Source: Sipunculus nudus
Lineage: Eukaryota > Annelida > Sipuncula > Golfingiida > Sipunculidae
Direction of reading: 5' to 3'
Length of the DNA stretch: 64,000 nt
Assembly: GCA_026874595.1 (NCBI GenBank)
Contig: CM049307.1
Location: 61,966,370 to 62,030,369, forward strand
The notes beneath the pieces were generated by a model. That model had not been told where the DNA came from, searched no databases, and worked only from the letters and a program-made list of their open reading frames with translations. The position numbers were made by a program, and so were the translations under genes. Each line of letters opens with the position of its first letter. The stretch's first letter is position 1. Of this stretch, positions 12,780 to 60,700 are shown one piece after another.

Positions 12780-13108
12780 CTAATGCACCTTGACTTTGCT
12801 TCGCAAATACTTGGCTATAGTGTACAACACATCTACAGGCCATGCAAACTCATTAGGGATGACACCCTGTACGCTGGACTCAAAATAAGAGAACAGGGGG
12901 AACCATATGCGGGTCCGTCGTCCGTCAGGCTGCATCAGGGCTTTGTTATTGGCAAGAGTATGGTAGTAGAGGAAAAGTCGAGAGGTTATGTAGTATGCGA
13001 TGAATACGTCGATGGAATAATGCTCATGAGCAGCGAGAATGAAGAAAATCCCAAACATGTTCATGACCCACGTGGTGGTGTGTAACCAGTGCATGCGACG
13101 AGGGGAGT
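12780..13108 (-). CDS. SAMD8: SAMD8 terminal coding exon 5 (His/Asp catalytic pair, C-terminus)
   Basis: 329 bp. Acceptor CTTTGTTTCAG. Residues 314-422 and stop TAG at 12782-12780. Contains HEHYSIDV with His343 and Asp347, the last membrane segments and the cytosolic tail ([21 protein letters not shown]...). The residue before His343 is Glu342, as in SMSr; SMS1/2 have Asp. Confidence 0.95.
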
Positions 13109-16100
13109 CTGAAACAAAGAAGGTTTAAATATGAGCAATTGATAACATTTTAACACCGGAAACAACTAAAGATTTTAACATCTGAAATTAATGTTTATCA
13201 ATTATCATTTGAAAACAATCATACCAAAGATCTCTTTTATTATAAGACTATTTAATATTATTCAATCTACTAAATACAGTTACTATTTTATTGGTATTTT
13301 TATTCATCTGTATGCATATGTAAATATGATTTTAACAATATACATGTAAGAAAATATACCAAACCACTGCTCACATCACCACAATGGATAAAGATACCAA
13401 TAATATACAGAAATTCCATACATACCAATATATCAATTTTATATTGTAAGAATACTCAGTTGTATATGATTAATTTTTTTACTAATTGATTAATTAATAC
13501 AATGCCAGCCTAAACAGAAAACATTTCCACTAGTTTTAAAATATGTTAATTTCCAGCATAACACAAGTGTGACATTACCGTAATGTCTACATTAGTTTGT
13601 ACCATGCATTACTTCATACACCCTATTTTCTCCAAAAAGATATTTTTATAAATAGTCTGTAATAATTGGTACATGTAAATGCTGGCGCAATATTAGGGGA
13701 TTCCCCTTGACAACATCCAATATGACTAGACTATAAGAAATGTGCCAGCCATGTTTTATTTAATCCTTACAGAGTCATTTTATGCATATCTTCTAGTTTC
13801 ATGTCTTTCTTTATTTATTTACCAATGTCACAGCATTGGAAGAGATTATGTAAAATAAAATACATCTGAGTTCAAGACTACTTCACTTTATGGATTCCTG
13901 AGACAGTGGATGAATCACAGATGATTCAGCACATCAAAATTAGTCTAGTTGAAACGCCATATTTTATAATTTAAATTATTTTCTTAAGTAAGATGTTTAT
14001 TATAATGTACTTTGCCAAGAAATAGATATGTGAAGCGGACATTTCTGGAACCATGAAAAGGGGCAGGATAAATCCAAGCACAAGCGCTTACATTCACATA
14101 TGAAGAAGTTGAGCAGTGTGACTGCGACTGTATGACCACTGAACATGTAGTCACCACATGTCCGCACTCCCTGAATGCTCATCCCTAGACCTTTGGATAT
14201 CGTTACAGCTCTAGTCATCTTGGCCCACAAGTCACCATATGGCTGAAAATAATTAAAACACATTTATAAATCATTAGGACATTTTCTGACAGTGCAGGTT
14301 TTGAGCTTTGTATTCACTAACAAAGAAATGAAATACAGAGTGTTAAAACTACCATTTTGTGTCTCCAGTCTCTTCCAGCAACATCAGGAAAATAACATCA
14401 GTGTTGTGCCAATTAATGGATTATATCAATGATTGGTCGGGTTTTTTTTAATTAATCAATTAAATCATTTGCATTTGTGCATATCTGATCACAAACAATT
14501 ATGTAAGCACATGCAAAATAGTCATATTATCGAGAAAACAATTTTCTAATTGTGTCGGGGATATATAAAAGACAGGGCACAAACCAGTGAACAGCAATAA
14601 AACCTAACTTTGTGCAACATAGAATTGTAAAAATTCTGGCCATTACATTGGCCTTTCAGGATAATATAAAAGTAAGACTGAGTTTATACGGTTAATATTG
14701 CAGGTATAATTCTATACAATAAATTTCATGTTAATATAGATGGTACATTGATCATCGGTCGTCTTTTATCTTTCAGTCACTGAATATGATTTGAAAAACA
14801 ATCCCTACCACTAGATAACAAGCTGCAATTTGCCACTGTAGCAGTTTCAAACAAATGATGCTGTGACAAATTCACTAAAATTTTAGTTTTTAATATGTAA
14901 ACATTTAAAAATGAAAATGTTTCAACAAAATTGTCAATTTCATTTAATATGTTAAAATAATACTGTCAGGCTTAGTGCATTTAGGATATGAAGTGTTTTG
15001 GTACTTTTGCAGTTAAGCAGACATTCCAATAAACCAAGTTTCGATTAAGTATATATATACTTTTACCTGAGGCTTGCAATCCAGATGATGACCAGGTACT
15101 GATAGTGACGTGATGATCATGGTGAAAGCTCTAAGTAGAAAGATGGTGCCAGCCAGACAGCACAGGCGCCGCAGAATGATGAACCTGAAGTACAATATCA
15201 CAGAGAATGCTTTAAACAAGAAGATGGTGAAAGCAAGACAACATACACTGCAGGATTATGAGCCTGAAGAACAAGACCATAGTGCTCTAAATAAGAAGGT
15301 GGTGCCAGCCTGACAACAGAGGCACTGCAGGATGATGAACCTGAAGTACAACATCATAGTAAACGCTCTAAATAAGAAGGTGGTGAGAGCAAGACAACAT
15401 ACACCGCAGGATGATGAACCTGAAGTACAATATCACAGTGAATGCTCTAAATAAGAAGACGGTGACGGCAAGACAACATACACCGCAGGATGATGAACCT
15501 GAAGTACAATATCACAGTGAATGCTCTAAATAAGAAGGTGGTGACAGCAAGACAACATACACCGCAGGATGATGAACCTGAAGTACAACATCATAGTAAA
15601 TCCTCTGTATAAGAAGGTGGTGCCAGCCTGACAACATACACTGCAAAATGATGAACCTGAAGTACAATATCACAGTAAATGCTCTAAATAAGAAGGTGGT
15701 GCCAGCCTGACAGCAGAGGCACAGCTGGATGATGAACCTTAAGTACAATATCAAAGTGAATGCTCCAATCAAGATGATATATATTCAGCATTATTTCACT
15801 ACAAAATCACAAATTAGTTTATTTACACGAGTTCCATAAAATACCAGAATAATTTACATAGCTTACAATAAAGCCCATACATGTTGGATCAAAAATCATT
15901 TCAAATGCAGTCTATAAAACAATGGAAACTTTCAATTAATGGCCATTGGTTGGAGCTGCATTTTTCCCTTTGAATGATAATGCCTGTAATGGGAGTGGTT
16001 ATGAAACACAAAGCCTAAATTCCTAAAGATAATTTAATATCCAAGTTTTGGTCCTTAGGGGTATTTCCAGTAATTATCAGTAATACCCAGTAATTATAAA

Positions 16101-19100
16101 CTAAAGATCAGGAGGTCATTCCGATTTCAGACTGAATTCTTTAATGGCTAATATGCTGTTTACATACATTAACATCATTATATATTTCAGGGTTAGCATT
16201 TGACCTAGGTAAAATCTGTTTTTCCCCCAACCCAGTGGATAAACCTGGGTTAAAAGTATTTTACCCATTCATTACCTAGGGTTTTGCCGAGTTTATCATC
16301 CAAGCTTCTTCAATGTTCATATGCTTTTATCAAGTAAGCAACACACCCATTTTCTTTCTGTTTTGGCAGCAGAAGTTATACACACATTCTGGGAATACTG
16401 GTGGCAAGCAGACTTGCTCTAGCCACAACATCCCTGTTAAAATGATGCAATTTACCACTGACACTTCAACTCATTTTTGGCTATGCAGAGCACATAACTG
16501 TACTCATTAGGAATTTAGTGTAAAACCAGGATTCCTGGGCAATACCTGGGTAAAACCTAATCTACCCAGCCCAGGTTTTATCCAGGTGTTACCTGGGTTT
16601 TACCTATGAACCCTGATTTATCTAAACAGTCTTATGTCATACTCACCTATGATTGTGAAAGAACAAAATAATACCAAGGATACCGAAGAGTACCATCCCT
16701 GTCACTTCACACATGACGAACGCCCATGGAATGTAGGGAAGGTTATCTAGCACTATGTCTGGCAGGGGAGGGTACTTCTTCATATCTGGAACACGGTCGT
16801 GACATACAGCCATAGCCATAGCTGTGATCAGAAAGACACCATAACAGTAAAGGCCACTTATAACTAACTTGGTGTACTCTGGTTTTAATGCTGTGCAGTA
16901 TTTACCAGAATAATCGTCACCATTATCACAGGTATCAATATAATCAGATGAGGTAGAGAGTTCGCTGTCCAGTCGATGGACCTTTTTCCGCCTGATATTG
17001 GGAACTGTAAGGTATCCTCCAGAGCTGGAAACTGTGGGTGGTGCATGCAGTAATTCTTCTTCCATAAAACTGACGTTTTCCCTCTGTAACTGAGTAATCT
17101 GGCGTGATAAACGTTTTATGTCACCTAGGGAGGTCATGGACAAAGGAGAGCTCCGAAGATCATTTTCTGTCATCATGAGTAAGACGGATCCATCCACTTT
17201 GTGACTGGAAAATAGTGACACCAAATGACCAAACCCTTTACTCTCCATCCACTGACCAACGTCCTGCACAGTCCACAATGTGACATCATCAGGACTTTCT
17301 AATCTTTTTCTGCAACAGGAAATTTGACAAGCATTAGTACTCAAGTCAATCAATGAAACCCTGAAGATAAATATTTCCTATAATCTGTTTAAAGTACACA
17401 TCTGTACTTGAAACCTTATTTTTCAAAACTTATTGATTTTGCAAATTCATATCTGAAAATTGCTACACAACCCACAGTAGGACAGACTCTACCTATCAGT
17501 CCAGGGCCTGAAAATTGGACAATAGAGCAGAGCCTAACATTGTGGGCTGCATGTAAAATCCCATAAAATGGCACATGTAGTTAAAGGAAAGGACAAAGGA
17601 AAAAGAAACAGATGAATCCAGCCAATGCAAGTATAGCAAAGGCAGATACGGCAGACAGAAAGTGGGAATTTCTGTGGAAGGTTAAGATATCACATACAGT
17701 GTTTTGCTCCAGGACATTACATGTTCTGAAGAGGCACTGGCAACAATACATAATATTGGCTCATGGAGTAATATTTGCTCATAGTAAGTCAACATACCTG
17801 TCCAATGTGCATAGAAGAAATGAAAAAAAGCACCATGTGGATCCTATGTACGTAGTGACACTTAGGATGGGGATGTCAGAGCAAATTCCTAATACTGCAT
17901 GAAAAGAAATTATCCATAAGACACAGTACCTGGTACTAAATTTTAACAGTGCAAACCTAATGGTAGAGGAAATACTACAATACGCACCTGTGGTTTAACC
18001 CCAACACAAATAGAAAGGGAATTTGGAGGAAGCAGGGGTAGAAGTGTGAACTGGTTCAGTTTTGCATGTGAGGTTTGCCAGGAGACATTAATCTGAATAT
18101 CTGAAAATGGCCAAACAATCGGGGACGAGGGAATTATCTTGAAAATTGATGAATTGAAATTTGCCAAACAGAAGTACCATCAGGGTCATGTTGTCAAGGG
18201 GGAATGGGTTTTTGACAGGCATGAGAGGGACAATAAAAGATAGTTTTCATGTTCACAGTTATCATGTAACAGCTGATACAGCCATGAGTCTTAATGTCAT
18301 TAGTCAAACATATTGACATATTTCATTTTTTTTTAAATTTTGTAATAAACATTAACCAACAAATTAAACTCCTGGAAAAGACTTGGAAATTTAGATTAAT
18401 TTAATATAATCAACTGCATCCTTGTCTATCATTAACTTGCTTCACATAATCCCTAATAGTAAACAACAATTTTATTTAACTATTTATTTTTCATTTTTAT
18501 GATTGAAATGAAATATACCCAATAGTGACTGCATGGTGTCATTTGAAATACATTTTCAGTCATCCAGGGAAGATCCATAAAACTAAAGTACATGCAAAGT
18601 TATTCCCTGTTACTCATTATCTATAAAATTCCTTTTCCATCATTTTTTTCTTAAAGTAATTATTATAAACCAATATTTTTTTTTAAATTGATTATTGTTA
18701 TGTCCAAAACAACTACTAGAGGATGGGAGTTGGACAGTTAAACCCAGCTAGAGCAACCCAAAAGCTGGCTGGGTGCAGAGTATGCCTCACCTAAAGCATG
18801 CATAATTGGCCTGAAAGGTCAATAAGGTGACATATAGGCTTCACTATAGCCTAGGTATGACATGGTCTCATAAAAACTTTAATAAAAGCTACAGTTTTAG
18901 GTCAATTCCTTCTAAATTTCAGAATTTAGAAGCTGAAATCCTTATGTGTGATATGAAAATTAAATCAACAGTGCTTACAGGGAAATAACATGCCATGGCC
19001 AAAGTTGGGCAAAATTTATGGTACTGATTTTATATTAATTCAAATAACATATTAAATTTTAAAAAAATAAGATCTAAATTTTGACATACAACCGAATTTC

Positions 19101-31489: not shown

Positions 31490-34400
31490 CTGCAATAAAA
31501 AATAAAACATTTTTAGATTGAGAGAGGTATCTCATATTATGAAATGTGACTTCATACATTTTGCGACAAGTAAAAATGACCCATGGCATGGCCCAAAAAA
31601 CTCAGCATAATATTATGTGTAGAATCTGTACACCTTTTGTCACAATCATCATTTGATTCTTATATTCAGCTTGTAGTCAGTTTGAAATTGTTATATACTG
31701 TATTACGATCAGTAATCAGACCAGTGCTGACATCTATTGACAGAATAAAGAGTTCCAAGACTGGACAACTCACTGAGTACCATTGGTAACAGTTTTCTCA
31801 CATTGTTCAGAATTTTTCTTTCAAGAGATTCAAGTCCTCATTTGACAAATATTTGAGTGAGAAAAACTGTGTCTTAAATGGATTCTTGAGGGAACAAAAA
31901 TACAAATGGTCACCTTCCTTACTTGTAGCAGAACAACTTTTCTTTTATGATAAAATTTTATATTTGATCTATACCTGCCTTATAGTAAAGAGTGGGATTG
32001 CATGTAATGAGAATTTGTCTGACCTTGCGGAGGACGACCTCTCCGTTCATATGCATGGACAGGCTACTGAAGTGGAACAGCATCTCATCGGCTGGCAGGT
32101 CCTGCTGAACGACATCTTCTCCGTAAACCGAAATGATTGCCAGTACAACAAATAGGTGGAAGTAGTCTGTCTGGTAGTGAGCCCAGCATGCCTCCCAGAT
32201 ACGCAAAGCCTCGGGAGCTGGGAATTCTCGTTTAAAACACAACAGAATCCACCTGAAGGAACAGAACAAAATCATAAATAATGGCCTAATGAAAAACCAA
32301 ATCCACCTGAAAGAACAGGATGGTTTATTGCTATTTTGCCAGATTCACTGTTATATTCCCAGATTCCCTGTTATTTTCCAAGATTAACTCCTATTTGCCA
32401 GATTCACTGTTATTTTCCAGACTCATTGCTATTTTCCTAGATTCTTTGCTATATTTTAAAGATTCACTGCTATTTTCTCAGAATCATCGCTATATTGCCA
32501 TAATCATTGTTATTTTCCCAGATTCAATGTTATTTTCCAGGATCATTCCTATTTTCCCAGAATCATTCCTTTTTTCCCGGATTCACAGGTACTTTTGAAG
32601 ATTTGCAGTTATTTTTCCAGATTCATTGTTATTTTCCCAGATTTACTGCTTTTCACCCAGATTCACTGTTATTTTACCAGTTTAATTACTTATTATCAGA
32701 TTAACTGTTATTTTCCCAGATTCACTGCTGTTTTCCCAGATTCACTGCTATTTTCCCAGATTCACTGCTATTCTCCCAGATTCACTGCTATTTTTCCAAA
32801 TTCATTGCCATTTTCCAAGATTCATTATTTTCCGAGAATCACTGCTATTTTCCCAGATTCACTGCTTTTTCCCAAGATTCACTGCTATTTTCCTAGATTC
32901 ACTATTTTCCCAAATTGCTATTTCCAAGATTAACAGCTATTTTCCCAGATTAACTGCTATTTTCCCAGATTCACTGTTATTTCCCAGATTCTCTGATATT
33001 CTCTCATATTAACTACTATAACCCAGATTCACTATTTCCCAGATTCACTGTTATTTTCCAAGATTCACTATATTCCAAAATTAACTGCTATTTCCAAGAT
33101 TCACTATTTTCCCAGATTCACTGCTATTTTCCTAGATTCCTTGCAATTTTTCCCAGATTCACTACTTTTCTCCAAGATTCATTGCTATTTTCCTAGATTC
33201 ACTGCTATTCTCCCAGATTCATTGCTATGTTCCCAGATTCACAGTTTGAATAAATAAGACACTGATATAACAATCAAGATTAAAACAAAATCATACCTTG
33301 TGAAATATTTCAGTAAAAAAAAGACAACATTTTAGATATCAACTATTGCAGATGAGGTATTTAGCAGTGTGAAGGATAATGAACATGTTTAACCTTAACA
33401 CAGAAAAACATATGCTATTTTGGGTACTGGTCTTATTAAAAAATACATGATACATAAGTATCAACAGAGCTGCTGTGGCAAAGCATCATATAACATTACA
33501 CTGATATATCATAATATATAATGGGTCTGAGTCGGCTGTTTAGTCATAAAACACCAGTGTCCCCAGGAGATCCATCGTGAAATAGTAGCCCACTATGAAT
33601 AAAATGTGTATAATAGGCTTGGTTCAAATGCAAATGCGTTTAATTACATTTCAAAATGGCACATTTGTATTTAAATTCAGAGCTACTGATAACTCTGCAA
33701 ATGCATATACATATGAGAATGATAATCTTAAATTATCAAATACAAACATATTACTTGAGTCCCATCTTGCAATGAAAAGGCAAGACAGTTTCATAAGAAT
33801 AGTGAAATAAGTTTCCAATATGCTAATCTACCATATTGACTGGTTTCAGAACCATGACATTATTCATTACATTATGCACACACACCTTGATATACTAATG
33901 CATCTGTGAGTGCACTGTATTTGCATTTGATAAATAATATAATATTGCATTTGATAATATTTAATCATTTTTCCATCTGATCTGAAATATGCATTTTTAA
34001 ATGTGCTGAATTGCATTTGAACCCTGGCCTAGTAAACAAGATTTCTTTACTGATAATTTTGCCGTTCATATTGTGTATAATTTTGCTTCTGATAATTTCT
34101 ACATTCATACCTGTGGCAGAACAAGAGAGCCATCCCATCCTGCATCTTCATCAGATGCTTGTAGAAGCGAGGCAGCATGATACGAATCAGCTCACCCAGG
34201 TACATCTGAAAGTACAACATGACATCATAGTGACAGAGGATAAAAAGTGCAGAGGGTCTAGTCTGGTAGCAATAGTCACTGATGCATAAAAATATTTATA
34301 TTACTTATTATAACTGACTGTGGCATTCAACCATTGGCATATAAATCCTATGTGGCCAAGCCAGTATTTGGTTTTGAACTGTCACCAACCATGTCCTAAG

Positions 34401-43400: not shown

Positions 43401-46400
43401 ATCCCCAGACAATTAATGCATATCCCCTTCAAAAACTAGAATACGGGTAGTTGACAAGCGACTACGTGTATCCGCAAAAATCAGAGTGGAACGGGTGAAG
43501 TGAGGCATGGATTGAGTTGGCAGATTTGATCTTAAGTAAAGGTCAAGGGCACAGGTTTCAAACTCTTTCAACAACTTATCACCTGAAAATTTTCATTTTG
43601 ATTTTCAGATAGATCCATCTATTATCTTGAGAAACAATATTTTTCACCAAATATGGAAATATTCAAGGTCAACCAAATCTCATAGGCCAGGTAATGACCC
43701 CAATTTATATATAAGTCATCCCATAACCCATATCTATGTACATACATAATATGAAAGAAATCTGTCCATTAGTTTTTGACAGTACTATCAAGTGGCAATG
43801 ATGGGGGTATTAACAAGCACAAAAATATGAAAGGACAAAAAAGGTGCCTACTGTCTCCCACAGAAGACAAAGCTTTCAAAGATCTCTTTTAATTTGACCA
43901 ATTTGATTTTTGGACCAATCCATGCCTCCCTCATTGAGTTATTTAAGATTTTGTGGGATTTCTTGAAATATGGAAATTTTTAAGGTCAAGGCCACTTTTA
44001 TAGTAAAGGTCATGATCCTAATTTATATATATACGTGATCCCATAACCCATATCTATGTACATGCATAATTTGAAAGAAATCTGTCCATTAGTTTTCGAC
44101 TTACCAGTATAATTCTCACAGTAATGTCAAGTGGCAATAAGGAGGGTATTAAAAGGTGCAAAAACAAGAAAAGGATAATAGGTAGTGCTACCAGTTTCTG
44201 GTACATGACAATGCTATCCAAGATCTTTGGTCAACTTTTTTTTGATCAACCAATGCAAGATTTCTTGAGACATTTAAGAATTTGTGTGATTTTCCCTAAA
44301 AATTGACCTATTCAAGGTAAAAGACACTCTCCTAGTAAAGGTCATGACCCCATTTTAAATAGGCTTTGTCTTATCACCCATATCTAAGCATATGTCAAGT
44401 TTGGTAAAGATCTGTAAAATTTTTTAGAGTTATTATGCAGACAAAATTTATCTGTGCCGACAGCGTAACACTCATAAAACCAAAGTATCTCCTCGAGTTT
44501 GTCTGGGGATAAAATAATGGTTTTAATCATAAAGTAAGCACATCACATTATCATAATAAGAGCTACTAATGCTCAACAATTAAGCCAGCCTCCCATCTAC
44601 CTATTTTGTGTTTAGGCTGACTTTTTAAACCGGCCAGATAAATCTGTAAGTCTCACCAGCCCACACACCTAGCGATTTTTCCTGCAGACTGCCAATTTCT
44701 CCGGTCACTTTGGTCACTTCTGGTTTTGTCTCCAGGATTGTTATTGCCATAAAGAATGATAAAAAGAAGGAAAGGCAGGTTGCAAATCAGCTGTTTTTTT
44801 CAGTTCTGTCATCACATCTACCAGAAAGAAATTTCCAGCCACATGAAAACTGTCAAGGATTTTTGCAGCCTATTTTGCCTGCCAGATTTTTTCAAAAGAT
44901 CTGGCTGGCAGCACCCTCCTATCAACCAATCTTACCAATTTTTCAGGATGGCAAAAAAAATTGGCCAGAAAAATTGGTAGTGTCAAACCTTACTATTATG
45001 AATGATTGTGCCGACATGAGAAGTCTGATAAAAGTTTTGCCTGTTGATTTAGATGTGGTACATTTGCAGCTAAGGATCTGTAGCCTAGGTCTGTTGATTA
45101 AGATGCAGTGGTTCCTGCATGAAACATCAAGTTATTGTATACATTATAATGACAAACATCATATAAACATATACAGGACTTCTTTGTGAATTAACAACAA
45201 ATTCCTGAACTGGAAATTTTAATAGGGACTTAGTCAAGATTTCTTCTTCTAATTGGGCATAAATAATGGAATAATGAAAATACTAGAATGGTGGGAAGTT
45301 AACCTATGGTGTTACCTATCTTAAATGCAATTTTTTCTCCATGAAAACTAACTGACACTTCAGGTTTCAAATGACTGACATGTACCGTAAGCCAAAAGGT
45401 ATAAATTCAATAATGCTGAGAGTTTTTGCTGAGATGAACAGCTCGCCGATGAAAATGTCACTTGACATAATTTCATGTGAAATTTTTACCACATAACCAC
45501 TGTCACACTATGACAAAAAATAAAGAAAAACTTTTTTTATTGTTATGAACAATGTTATGAACTGGTTACTTGCTTATATCATTATTCTTTAGTTTTGATG
45601 CATAAATATTAACTAGACATTTCTTGGCACTGCAGGTGCCAGAGTATCCCCAGACATAGTAGCCCCCCCCCCCCCTTTAAGAATAGACCCCCATTTTTAG
45701 CAGCATATACTGACACTTGGCATATTTATTGTTTCTTCCATCTAACAATCCACAATCTTGTTGAAGATGTTGGTCCTGTGACCTTGATCTTTTTAAAGAT
45801 GTGTCCTGTGACCTTGACCTTTGACCTCATGACCCCAAAATCAATTTGGGTCTTGCTTTTCCAATGGGACATATGCAAGTCAAGTTTGAAATCTATACAT
45901 CAATAAAGCAGGAATTATCATCCAGAAACTAATTTTTGGACATATGGCTCCTGTGACCATCACCTTTGACCTTGTGACCTCAAAATTGATAGTGTTCTTC
46001 CTCTCTTGGCAGGAGAACTACATGTGCAAGACGAAAGATCTGAGATGAAATGTGTGGCTGAAAATGCATCCACATCTTTTTAAAGATGTGTCCTGTGACC
46101 TTGACCTTTGACATCATGACCCCAAAATCAATTTTGGTCTTGCTTTTCCAATGGGACATATACAAGTCAAGTTTGAGATCCATACATCAATAAAAGCAGG
46201 AATTATCATCCAGAAACTAATTTTTGGACAGATGGCTCCTGTGACCTTCACCTTTGACCTTGTGACCTCAAAACTGATAGGGGTCTTCCTCTATTGGCAG
46301 ATGACTTATATGTGCAAGATGAAAGGTCTGAGATGAAATGTTTGGCTGAAAATGCATCCACAATCCTTTTAAAGATGTGTCCTGTGACCTTGACCTTTGA

Positions 46401-49400
46401 CCTTATGACCCCAAAATCAATTGGAGTCTTGCTTTTTCAATGGGACATATATAAGTCAAGTTTGAAATCAATACATCAGTAAAAGCAGGAATTATCATCC
46501 AGAAACTAATTTTTGGACAGATAGCTCCTGTGGCCTTGACCTTTGACCCCAAAATTTATATGGATCATCCACTATTGGCAAGTGAGCTATATATTCAAGA
46601 TGGAAGACCTAGGATGAAAGTTTGGCTTAAAATGCATCCACAGTATCTTTTAAAATGCCAGTCCAGTGACCTTGACGTTTGACCTCATGACCCTAGAACC
46701 CATAGGGTTCTTACTTTAGTGGTGGGCCATACATAAGTCATGTTTGAAATCCATATGGCTATCAACACTGGAGATATCATAAGAGGTGTGTGATTTTCAC
46801 CATATATGGCAATATTCAAGGTCAAGGCCACTATCATAGGAAAGGTCATGACCCCAATTTAAATAAACATCATTCAATAACCCATATATACCTATGTATA
46901 TGCATAATATAAAAGAAATCTGTCCATTAGTTTTTGACTTATAATGCTCACAGTACTGTAAGGTGGCAATTTTGGGGGTATTAAACGGCACGAAAACAAG
47001 TAAAGAATAATAGGTGGCACCACCAGTTTCTGGAACATGACAGCACTATCCAAGATCTTCCATCAAGTTGATTTTGGGATAAATCCATGCAAGATTTCTT
47101 GAGATATTAAAGAATTTGTGTGATTTTCCCCAAAATTGGACCTATTCAAGGTCAAGGACACTCTCCTAGTAAAGGTCATGACCTCATTTTATATAGGCGT
47201 CGTCCTCTTACCCATATCTATACATATACCAAGTTTGGTAAAGTTCCGTGAAATATTTTTTGAGTTATCATGCCAACAAGATTTATATGCGGCGGCGGCG
47301 GCGGCGGGGGGAACGGTATGAAAACATAGTATCCCCTGACTTTGTCTGGGGATACAATTATATATTTTAAATATAATACACTTGATTTTCACATAATATT
47401 ACTATGATATACTGTCATTGTAAGTGACCAATGTAACGTTTGATTTCTATCCTACATATTAACTTTTCCTTTATGTAAAATAAATTAAAATTACGTTTCT
47501 CATGAAGGCATTATTAGGTGATACTGTCTTCTAAATTGAGAAGTTATTATTGGTTTTGTTACCACAGCTGCATGAGCTGATATAAGGCCCACATCAAGAG
47601 GTTGAAAATCAACACAGCACAGAGCCACTTAATTAAACCATTCATCATATGATAAAGAGACAACAGGCCATTGCAGCGACAGTGAATGGTCCCCCAGGGG
47701 TATAGTCGAAAACTGAGACCTCAATCAGGATTTAATATATCCGAGTTTGAGGTGGCATATACCGCCCTGCGGCTGAAATGTCCTCTCCTCTCCTTAGATC
47801 CATCATATCTCCTGCTGCCAAAACTGGTCCGTGTTATATGGGCTATTGTTAGAAAATCAATAATGTTGGGGCCAGGTTTTATACCAGTGGTTCTAAGCAG
47901 ACTCCTGCAGGCTGACAGCATCTGTTACAGTCTGTTCGTTCTAGTCCAGCTGCTGGGTTGGTTCTGATTCTATGATGCTGGTGAAAAACTGTTTTTTGCA
48001 TCTGATGAAGCAGTGACGATGGGTATGTCACATGGAGGTTGTGATAGGGTTATGGGCTTTCTTAAATTAGAAAAAGCTCTGGGTTGATGTGAAATATTTA
48101 ATACTGACAGCCATTTATTGCACAATGTCTTGTTTATTAAAGCACACATTGGCTTATTTTAAACATCAGCCTTTTCTCATTCACCACACAGTTATTTAAT
48201 TATTTGTGTAAAACAAGCAGAAATTTATATGTTATAACCAACATTATTGATTTAATTTAATGATTTAGTATATGTACAGTGCCTTTATTAAGCATACATG
48301 CTTAGAATATTGGGCTTTATAAATTTATATTAATAATAATAATAATAATTCATCCCTTTAGAAAATAATAATAAAATGAATAAATCAAGAAACATAATTT
48401 GTTGTAATTCAGTTGTCAAATTTTTGGAAATGAGCTTGGTCCTATACTTTTGGTCATTGGAACAAAGACCAGCAGAATAATCGTTTCAGTATTTTGATTA
48501 AAACAATGTGACAAATGGGTCATGATGCCAGGCTGAAACCTGACTGACAGCACTGTTTAGATATTTAAATTCTTTTATAACTGATGAGTGTTTAGAAATG
48601 GTAGTTAAATCATGTTCCATTAGTGTAGGACGAAAGCAACCAACGATTGATTATTAATCAGTTATATCTACCCATGTAATATTTTACAGAATTAACCCAC
48701 AAACTATAATTGACCACATGTTCCTTGTCTCATTGTTCAAGTGCCTCTAACAGATGTCAGTACCACTGACAGTTACTTGCTGGGAGATAAAAGTACAAAC
48801 AGATGAAAAAAAAAACTGCTATTGGATCTTGATAATTTGTAAATTTATGAAATAAACCCTTCCTTGCTTCAAGGCACACCTCTTTAAACAATTCCTCTTT
48901 TTTATACATACTGTAAACAGACAAGCCAACAAACATAAGGAAAATATAACCTCCATCCCAGGCTTCTGGCAGAGAAGAAAACAATACCACTGGAACTGTC
49001 CCTTCATCTGGATGCACTACAAAATTTACCCTCCATGGCCTGTCCAATCCTTACACAAAACTTTATGGAAATCAGATAAATGGTTTTAATGTAATCCAGC
49101 TAACATTCAAACCAACCAACAGACAGACACATGTTAAATCTTAACCTCCTTGGTGGAGGTAATAAAGCAATATTGAACTAGAATATGGGTAGTTGAGAAG
49201 CGACTACGTTGATCCGCCGAAATCGGAGTGGGACGGGTGAAGTGAGGCTTGGATTGAGTGGCAAGGGGAAATAGAGTGAGGTATGTTGCATATTAGCATG
49301 GATGTCTGCAGCTGAAATGTGTATGTAGGTGGCACCACCTGTCACAATATCCAGAAAGTTATCCAAGTTGTATACAAGTGCAAAATTTTTATAGGCAGAT

Positions 49401-57734: not shown

Positions 57735-60700
57735 CTAGACATTTCTTGGCACCGCAGGTGCCAGAGTATCCCCAGACATAGTAGGCCCCCACCCCCTTTA
57801 TAAATAGACCCCCATTTTTAGCAGCATATACTGACACTTGGCATATTTATTGTTTCTTCAATCTAACAATCCACAATCTTGTTGAAGATGTTGGTCCTGT
57901 GACCTTGATCTTTTTAAAGATGTGTCCTGTGACCTTGACCTTTGACCTCATGACCCCAAAATCAATTCTGGTCTTGCTTTTCCAATGGGACATATGCAAG
58001 TTTGAAATCTATACATCAATAAAGCAGGAATTATCACCCAGAAACTAATTTTTGGACAGATGGCTCCTGTGACCTTCACCTTTGACCTTGTGACCTCAAA
58101 TTTGATAGTGTTCTTTCTCATTTGGCAGGAAAACTATATGTGCAAGATGAAAGATCTGAGATGAAATGTTTGGCTGAAAATGCATCCACATCTTTTTAAA
58201 GATGTGTCCTGTGACCTTGACCTTTGACCTCATGACCCCAAAATCAATTTGGGTCTTGCTTTTCCAATGGGACATATACAAGTCAAGTTTGAAATCCATA
58301 CATCAATAAAAGCAGGAATTATCATCCAGAAACTAATTTTGGGACAGATGGCTCCTGTCACCTTCACCTTTGACCTTGTGACCTCAAAATTGATAGGGGT
58401 CTTCCACTCTTGGCAGGTGAACTATATGTGCAAGATGAAAGAACTGAGATGAATTGTTTGGCTGAAAATGCATCCACAATCTTTTTAAAGAGGTTTCCTG
58501 TGACCTTGACCTTTGACCTCATGACCCCAAAATCAATTCAGGTCTTGCTTTTCCAATGGGTCAAATTCAAGTCAAGTTTGAAATCCTAAATCAATAAAAG
58601 AAGGAATTATCATCCAGAAACTAATTTTTGGACAGATGGCTCCTGTGACCTTCACTTTTGACCTTGTGACCTCAAAATTGATAGGGTTCTTCCTCTCTTG
58701 GCAGGTGAACTATATGTGCAAGATGAAAGGTCTGAGATGAAATGTTTGGCTGAAAATGCATCCACATCTTTTTAAAGGTGTGTCCTGTGACCTTGACCTT
58801 TGACCTCATAACCTCAAAATCACTTTGGGTCTTGCTTTTCCAATAGGACATATACAAGTCAAGTTTGAAATCCATACATCAATAAAAGCAGGAATTAACA
58901 TCCAGAAACTGAATTTTGGACAGATGGCTCCTGTGACCTTCACCTTTGACCTTGTGACCTCAAAATTTATATGGGTCTTCCACTCTTGGCAGGTGAACTA
59001 TATGTGCAAGATGAAAGATCTGAGATGAATTGTTTGGCTGAAAATGCATCCACAATCTTTTTAAAGAGGTTTCCTGTGACCTTGACCTTTGACCTCATGA
59101 CCCCAAAATCAATTCAGGTCTTGCTTTTCCAATGGGTCGAATACAAGTCGAGTTTGAAATCCATACATCAATAAAAGAAGGAATTATCATCCAGAAACTA
59201 ATTTTTGGACAGATGGCTCTTGTGACCTTCACCTTTGACCTTGTGACCTCAAAATTGATAGGGTTCTTCCTCTCTTGGCAGGTGAACTATATGTGCAAGA
59301 TGAAAGATCTGAGATGAAATGTTTGGCTGAAAATGCATCCACTCTTTTTAAAGGTGTGTCCTGTGACCTTGGACCTCATAACCTCAAAATCAATTTGGGT
59401 CTTGCTTTCCCAATGGGACATATATAAGTCAAGTTTGAAATCCATACATCAATAAAAGCAGGAATTATCATCCAAAAACTAATTTTTGGACGGATGGCTC
59501 CTGTGACCTTCACCTTTGACCTTGTGACCTCAAAATTGATAGGGGTCTTCCTCTATTGGCAGATGACTTATATGTGCAAGATGAAAGGTCTGAGATGAAT
59601 TGTTTGGCTGAAAATGCAGCCACATCTTTTTAAAGATGTGTCCTGTGACCTTGACCTTTGACCTCATGACCCCAAAATCAATTTGGGTCTTGCTTTTCCA
59701 ATGGGACATATATAAGTCAAGTTTGAAATCCATACATCAATAAAAGCAGGAATTATCATCCAGAAACTAATTTTTGGACAGATGGCTCCTGTGACCTTCA
59801 CCTTTGACCTTGTGACCTTTAAAACTGATAGGGGTCTTCCACTCTTGGCAGGTGAACTATATGTGCAAGATGAAAGATCTGAGATGAATTGTTTGGCTGA
59901 AAATGCATCCACAATCTTTTTAAAGAGGTTTCCTGTGACCTTGACCTTTGACCTCATGACCCCAAAATCAATTGGAGTCTTGCTTTTTCAATGGGACATA
60001 TATAAGTCAATTTTGAAATCATTACATCAATAAAAGCAGGAATTATCATCCAGAAACTAATTTTTGGACAGATGGCTCCTGTGGCCTTGACCTTTGACCT
60101 TGTGACCCCAAAATTTATATGGATCATCCATTATTGGCAAGTGAGCTATATATTCAAGATGGAAGACCTGGGATGAAAGTTTGGCTTAAAATGCATCCAC
60201 AGTATCTTTTAAAATGCCAGTCCAGTGACCTTGACCTTTGACCTCATGACCCTAGAACCTATAGGGTTCTTACTTTAGTGGTGGGCCATACATAAGTCAT
60301 GTTTGAAATCCATATGGCTATCAACACTGGAGATATCATAAGAGGTGTGTGATTTTCACCATATATGGCAATATTCAAGGTCAAGGCCACTATCATAGGA
60401 AAGGTCATGACCCCAATTTAAATAAACATCATCCCATAACCCATACCTATGTATATGCATAATATAAAAGAAATCTGTCCATTAGTTTTTGACTTATAAT
60501 GTTCACAGTGCTGTAAGGTGGCAATTTAGGGGGTATTAAACGGCACGAAAACAAGTAAAGAATAATAGGTGGCGCCACCAGTTTCTGAAACTTGACAACC
60601 CTATCCATGATCTTATTAACTTGATTTTGGGATAAATCCATGCAAGATTTCTTGAGATATTAAAGAATTTGTGTGATTTTCCCCAAAATTGGACCTATTC

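Follow-up and report, generated by a model that had tools for sequence, protein, structure and literature searches.

The SAMD8 gene in the window (the whole 64,000-nucleotide stretch of DNA analysed here) carries a tandem array directly 5′ of its exon 3, which is very probably a minisatellite of the mirage type, laid over the boundary between intron 2 and exon 3, grown at the exon edge and for the most part without present effect. Seven extra units and one partial unit were found on the minus strand, and each full unit joins the end of intron 2 (~26–29 nt) to a stretch homologous to the start of exon 3 (~55–63 nt). The array leaves eight splice sites of almost the same sequence next to one another. 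The array, its eight acceptor AGs, the reading frames, the match that may have seeded it and the identities between its units were read directly from the DNA, and the history and present behaviour of the array are argued from them.

SAMD8 is a lipid-enzyme gene for sphingomyelin synthase-related protein (SMSr), and its exons 2–5 lie on the minus strand of the window. When these four exons were joined as the gene model, using the acceptor at 15184, they gave 419 residues with matches to the PAP2_C and SAM domains, and the product matched the solved structure of SMSr (PDB 8ijr) with an E-value of 9.7e-131. Because the joined exons match SMSr and the alignment runs without gaps across the exon 2/3 junction, it is the acceptor at 15184 that yields the enzyme. 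Exons 2–5 of SAMD8 are intact. Intron 2 is 1462 nt long, and by the coordinates 909 nt of it separate the exon 2 donor from the most distal acceptor; intron 3 measures 824 nt. Among the best-scoring candidates in its own 1.43-Gb assembly, SAMD8 was found at this locus only, together with two weak SAM-like matches (E 1.07 and 4.83). Several CCCAGGTA-like words, which are CAG/GTA donor-like motifs, were also seen by eye, uncounted, within intron 2 shortly past the exon 2 donor (window 16200–16600, minus strand).

Tandem Repeats Finder placed the array at 15122–15765 with a period of 79, 8.1 copies and 83% matches, and its score of 807 compares with a best score of 50 among 200 shuffles of 15067–15770. 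The first-pass annotation had proposed seven extra copies of the intron 2 tail and the exon 3 start directly upstream of exon 3, and the tandem array is real, confirmed with small corrections. The units are 77–81 bp long rather than 77–80 bp, and the division of each into ~30 bp of intron and ~50 bp of exon became the slightly shorter intron part and longer exon part given above. Among the lengths by which distal acceptors would extend exon 3, six (79, 156, 235, 314, 393 and 472 nt) agreed with the annotation, and the longest is 553 nt instead of 552 nt. The features are listed in Table 1.

Table 1. Features of the SAMD8 locus in window coordinates. Differences are counted against the real acceptor over 23 nt; the stop-to-donor distance is measured in the lengthened exon.
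Feature	Positions	Strand	Length	Acceptor before	Extension (nt)	23-nt differences	Stop to donor (nt)	Remarks
SAMD8 exon 2	16647..17309	-						SAM domain and first membrane segments; donor at 16646
Left partial unit	15738..15777	-						old intron 2 tail, no exon part; ends in acceptor-like CTTAAG at 15738
Unit 1	15657..15737	-	81 bp	15737	553	3	448	most distal
Unit 2	15578..15656	-	79 bp	15656	472	1	448	
Unit 3	15499..15577	-	79 bp	15577	393	3	462	
Unit 4	15420..15498	-	79 bp	15498	314	1	383	
Unit 5	15341..15419	-	79 bp	15419	235	1	304	
Unit 6	15264..15340	-	77 bp	15340	156	3	192	in frame, then TAA
Unit 7	15185..15263	-	79 bp	15263	79	6	148	nearest; tail is the real exon 3 acceptor
SAMD8 exon 3 proper	15067..15184	-	118 nt	15184				exon part of the unit derives from the first ~63 nt (15184-15122)
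SAMD8 exon 4	14092..14242	-						
SAMD8 exon 5	12780..13108	-						coding part to stop codon

The left partial unit (15777–15738) matched a unit profile built without that sequence (E 2e-4); Tandem Repeats Finder draws the array edge at 15765. When further decayed units were looked for 5′ of the array, none was found past the partial unit. At a spacing of 81 bp, which is the likely ancestral unit length, no gaps are needed to align unit 1 with exon 3; five units share one common 2-nt gap, and unit 6 has a 4-nt gap. Pairwise identities among the extra units range from 77 to 96%, with units 3–5 closest to one another (90–96%), and exon 3 is the most divergent member, with 63–73% identity to the extra units. 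These identities bear on whether the array could be an assembly artefact or a haplotype mis-join. While tandem arrays can be assembled wrongly and one assembly was examined here, all seven units differ from one another, some with indels of their own. An assembly error is hard to accept because repeating one allele would give identical copies, and we regard it as exceedingly unlikely. Among the best-scoring candidates, the array was found at one place only in its own 1.43-Gb assembly. A 20-nt acceptor word, allowed up to two mismatches, was found at 22 places in the assembly; seven lie in the array, and each of the 15 outside it carries two mismatches.

The left flank of the array, which is the old intron tail, agrees with exon 3 in 15 of 19 positions (counted by eye) when set at the array's own offset of 81 bp. 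The score of this match was reached by none of 5000 shuffles at the fixed offset and by 2 of 500 shuffles at any offset. A second offset gives a match between the flank and exon 3 with the same score (12 of 13 nt, reached by 19 of 2000 shuffles), and the seed is therefore not unique. The simplest account of the origin would be a chance imperfect repeat, in which the resemblance of the old intron tail to exon 3, 81 bp apart, may have led to slippage or unequal exchange. The first copied unit would have been 81 bp long, with ~26 nt of intron tail that carried a branch-like motif and the acceptor and with ~55 nt of exon. Later unequal exchange would have enlarged the array and partly homogenised its inner units.

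The same length of 81 bp could also point to an older event, an in-frame duplication of 27 codons by which the intron tail itself was derived from exon 3, took on the acceptor role later and gave rise to the present array. In the exon frame, the tail translates as RAFTVIL and exon 3 as RAFTMII, with several third-position differences, and open frames cross the boundary. However, the comparison covers ~6–7 codons, and no clear exon-like body was found before the intron tail of the partial unit, where gapped matches were equalled by 172–457 of 1000 shuffles; this is what one would predict for a tail that had formed the end of the intron from the outset. We consider derivation of the tail from exon 3 very unlikely.

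AG is kept at all eight acceptors, as CAG in seven and as AAG in one, and the next two bases are GT in seven and GC in one. The acceptor motif had been annotated as CTTAAG in one copy, which was found at 15737, and as CTTCAG/GTTC in every other, which does not hold for the 15263 copy, where it is CTTCAG/GCTC. All seven distal acceptors lead to a stop codon within the lengthened exon, before the exon 3 donor, and the products have 237–295 residues as compared with 419 when 15184 is used. The 156-nt version starts in frame and then ends at TAA, as had been annotated. Stop codons so placed before a donor are usually targets of decay. The earlier statement that no copy has the exon 3 donor also stood: the canonical donor GT[AG]AG, as in the potato case discussed below, does not occur in the array, though the weaker donor-like GTATGT occurs in five of the seven units. 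Tandem exon duplication or mutually exclusive exons were considered and rejected, since the units stop ~55–63 nt into the 118-nt exon, lack its donor and run into stops. YTNAY is a branch-point-like motif and a crude guide only. It lies at −20 in six of the seven distal sites and at −29 in the 15263 site, and the real acceptor at 15184 has none closer than −44; by this crude count, the distal sites look no worse than the real one.

A bank of poison acceptors would draw on several of these features. The distal acceptors would be used to a controlled extent, the stop-containing transcripts would lower SAMD8 output, and copy number would set the level. Besides the complete retention of AG and the motif at −20, three of the seven distal 23-mers are one mismatch away from the real site, and the stops in all seven extended forms are positioned as decay would need. 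To these observations we set the variation among the copies. The seven units hold 45 changes from their consensus in 553 cells, and the probability that all 14 AG bases survive at that change rate is 0.305; complete retention of AG is thus expected even in the absence of selection. Within the 23-nt acceptor zone, 10 changes were counted as compared with 12.8 expected, a value as low in 21 of 81 circular shifts, and the zone is not significantly conserved. Closer to the junction, the last 11 nt hold 1 change as compared with 6.1 expected (4 of 81 shifts as low) and the zone from −11 to +12 holds 6 as compared with 12.8 (3 of 81), which is a weak hint of constraint and the kind of mild conservation that poison acceptors would leave; all of these tests are rough in that the units share history. 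Furthermore, the mirages described in amphioxus left regular splicing undisturbed (PMC3087553). Considering both sides, we judge a poison-acceptor bank to be quite improbable. A wider version would make the array a copy-number-tuned rheostat of poison acceptors that lowers SAMD8 output, with acceptor and donor arrays recurring genome-wide as a heritable, fast-mutating layer of splicing variation. If true, each added unit would act as a strong competing acceptor that yields a decay-prone transcript, and SAMD8 output would fall with copy number; we hold this to be highly unlikely.

The first-pass annotation had offered neutral growth from the exon edge and a bank of decoy acceptors side by side. 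The decoys found no positive support in AG retention or in the 23-nt zone and keep the hints from the junction zone and from YTNAY. Neutral growth fared better, as the copies vary at all codon positions, every distal acceptor leads to a stop and the array resembles a published, tolerated class. The changes at codon positions 1, 2 and 3 number 10, 17 and 18, respectively, and because all three positions vary, the copies do not appear to be maintained as coding sequence.

For a mirage-type minisatellite of this kind, the spliceosome would take the exon-proximal acceptor at 15184 in most transcripts, and transcripts from distal acceptors would carry an early stop and be removed by decay. We took 15184 as the main acceptor because the exon lies between two long introns and is shortest, at 118 nt, when this site is used. 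In human data, competing acceptors at least 20 nt apart are taken as selected at the first step, and long introns (>250 nt) on both sides reduce the preference for the upstream acceptor; the part of the report cited here gives no numerical reversal for acceptors, and its authors conclude that exon definition favours the sites closest across the exon (PMC9225289). Carried over from another animal, exon definition would thus point to 15184. The array is most likely harmless, and would be neutral by default.

As a control in the same genome, the same repeat finder was run on 90 of the 138 kinase-domain matches listed, namely 30 loci that the search cut out, including two on the small contigs C69 and C118, and a further 60 retrieved by position. 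Four arrays were found within 40 bp of a matched kinase exon, and one of the three inspected by eye has a splice junction. Junction-bearing arrays therefore number 1 in 90 in the kinase sample, to which the SAMD8 array is extra, being outside it. The junction-bearing array lies in a kinase gene on the minus strand (L062/L094, G000:C4:93857159-93861743) and consists of ~70 copies of a 65-bp unit that carries a splice donor. Each unit comprises the last 18 nt of the kinase exon, the donor AAG/GTAGAT and an intron piece of 47 nt. In the fetched part, 41 donor words were counted with a search word that itself requires GTAGATAC; GT follows AAG in 36 of them and AAT in the other 5. This array matches at no other place in the assembly. 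The kinase donor array is the mirror case of the SAMD8 acceptor array. At another kinase locus (L054, G000:C9:48357459-48359743), a 40-bp unit repeated 15 times starts right after the donor of the kinase exon and is intron only, with no exon part seen. At a further one (L040, 1906-1943), a 19-bp repeat in two copies lies within the kinase match itself.

Other repeats were noted in the window, namely two arrays of a related 288–289-bp unit at 45787–46755 and 57908–60314, rich in TGACCTTGACCTTTGACC-like words, and an array of ~47 copies of a 20-bp unit at 32329–33242 with 74% matches. A Pfam scan of five other ORFs of the window gave no family. Elsewhere in the assembly, contig C60 (L023) holds an uninterrupted, bacterial-looking COX1 of 577 aa, with similar COX1 matches on other small contigs, and contig C123 (L022) holds bacterial-looking cytochrome oxidase genes, a 494-aa oxidase frame followed by a second frame. 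We take the former frame to be a cbb3-like oxidase and the latter to be CcoO-like. The assembly seems to hold bacterial contigs.

The locus amounts to a natural competition experiment, in which a single exon, in a gene found at one place in the genome, is preceded by eight nearly identical 3′ splice sites. It offers a clean test of how exon definition chooses one site among equals, with a donor mirror array in the same genome, and it likewise allows a test of the proposed role of mirages as raw material for new introns.

Repeats at exon edges have been described in several systems. In genes of human segmental duplications, internal tandem repeats occur at exon–intron boundaries with units of ~30 bp and 4 repeats on average (PMC2812944). 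As at SAMD8, these are minisatellite expansions at an exon edge, and in human they sometimes alter gene structure or make new introns; the cases presented in that report belong to recent primate paralogues, whereas SAMD8 was found without a second copy. In the potato RdRp gene, an intron was gained by tandem duplication over an intron–exon boundary (PMC4974935). The duplicated piece there likewise consists of the 3′ end of an intron and the 5′ part of an exon, with branch site, pyrimidine tract and acceptor. In the potato account, however, a single duplication recruited a GTAAG donor and the new intron was seen by RNA-seq, in contrast with the seven extra copies at SAMD8, in which no GT[AG]AG was found.

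The closest counterparts are the tandem repeats over intron–exon boundaries in amphioxus globin and Adh3 genes, named mirages (PMC3087553). As described in that paper, BflGb6 repeats the 3′ end of an intron and the 5′ part of exon 2, its two haplotypes carry six and three units, and these units of 150–160 bp are 81–100% identical, the inner ones homogenised and the edges not. In BflGb9, the 3′ exon boundary is duplicated, and Adh3 units are 10–72 bp long. The SAMD8 array shares with these examples a minisatellite-like unit spanning an intron–exon boundary, in the same arrangement as BflGb6, and AG/GT splice signals in many units (AG in 8 of 8 at SAMD8). Homogenisation of the inner units with the edges excluded is also common to both, judged at SAMD8 from the identity table. 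It differs in its units of 77–81 bp and its seven extra copies. Variation in copy number and undisturbed splicing are reported for the amphioxus mirages, while the SAMD8 array is known from the sequence of one assembly. Either exon boundary can be repeated in mirages, and the genome that carries the SAMD8 array has both an acceptor array and a donor array. As mirages are already published in amphioxus, the SAMD8 array is a further case of a described class of repeats, and, should its host lie outside the cephalochordates, it would extend the known range of mirages past the amphioxus examples considered here.
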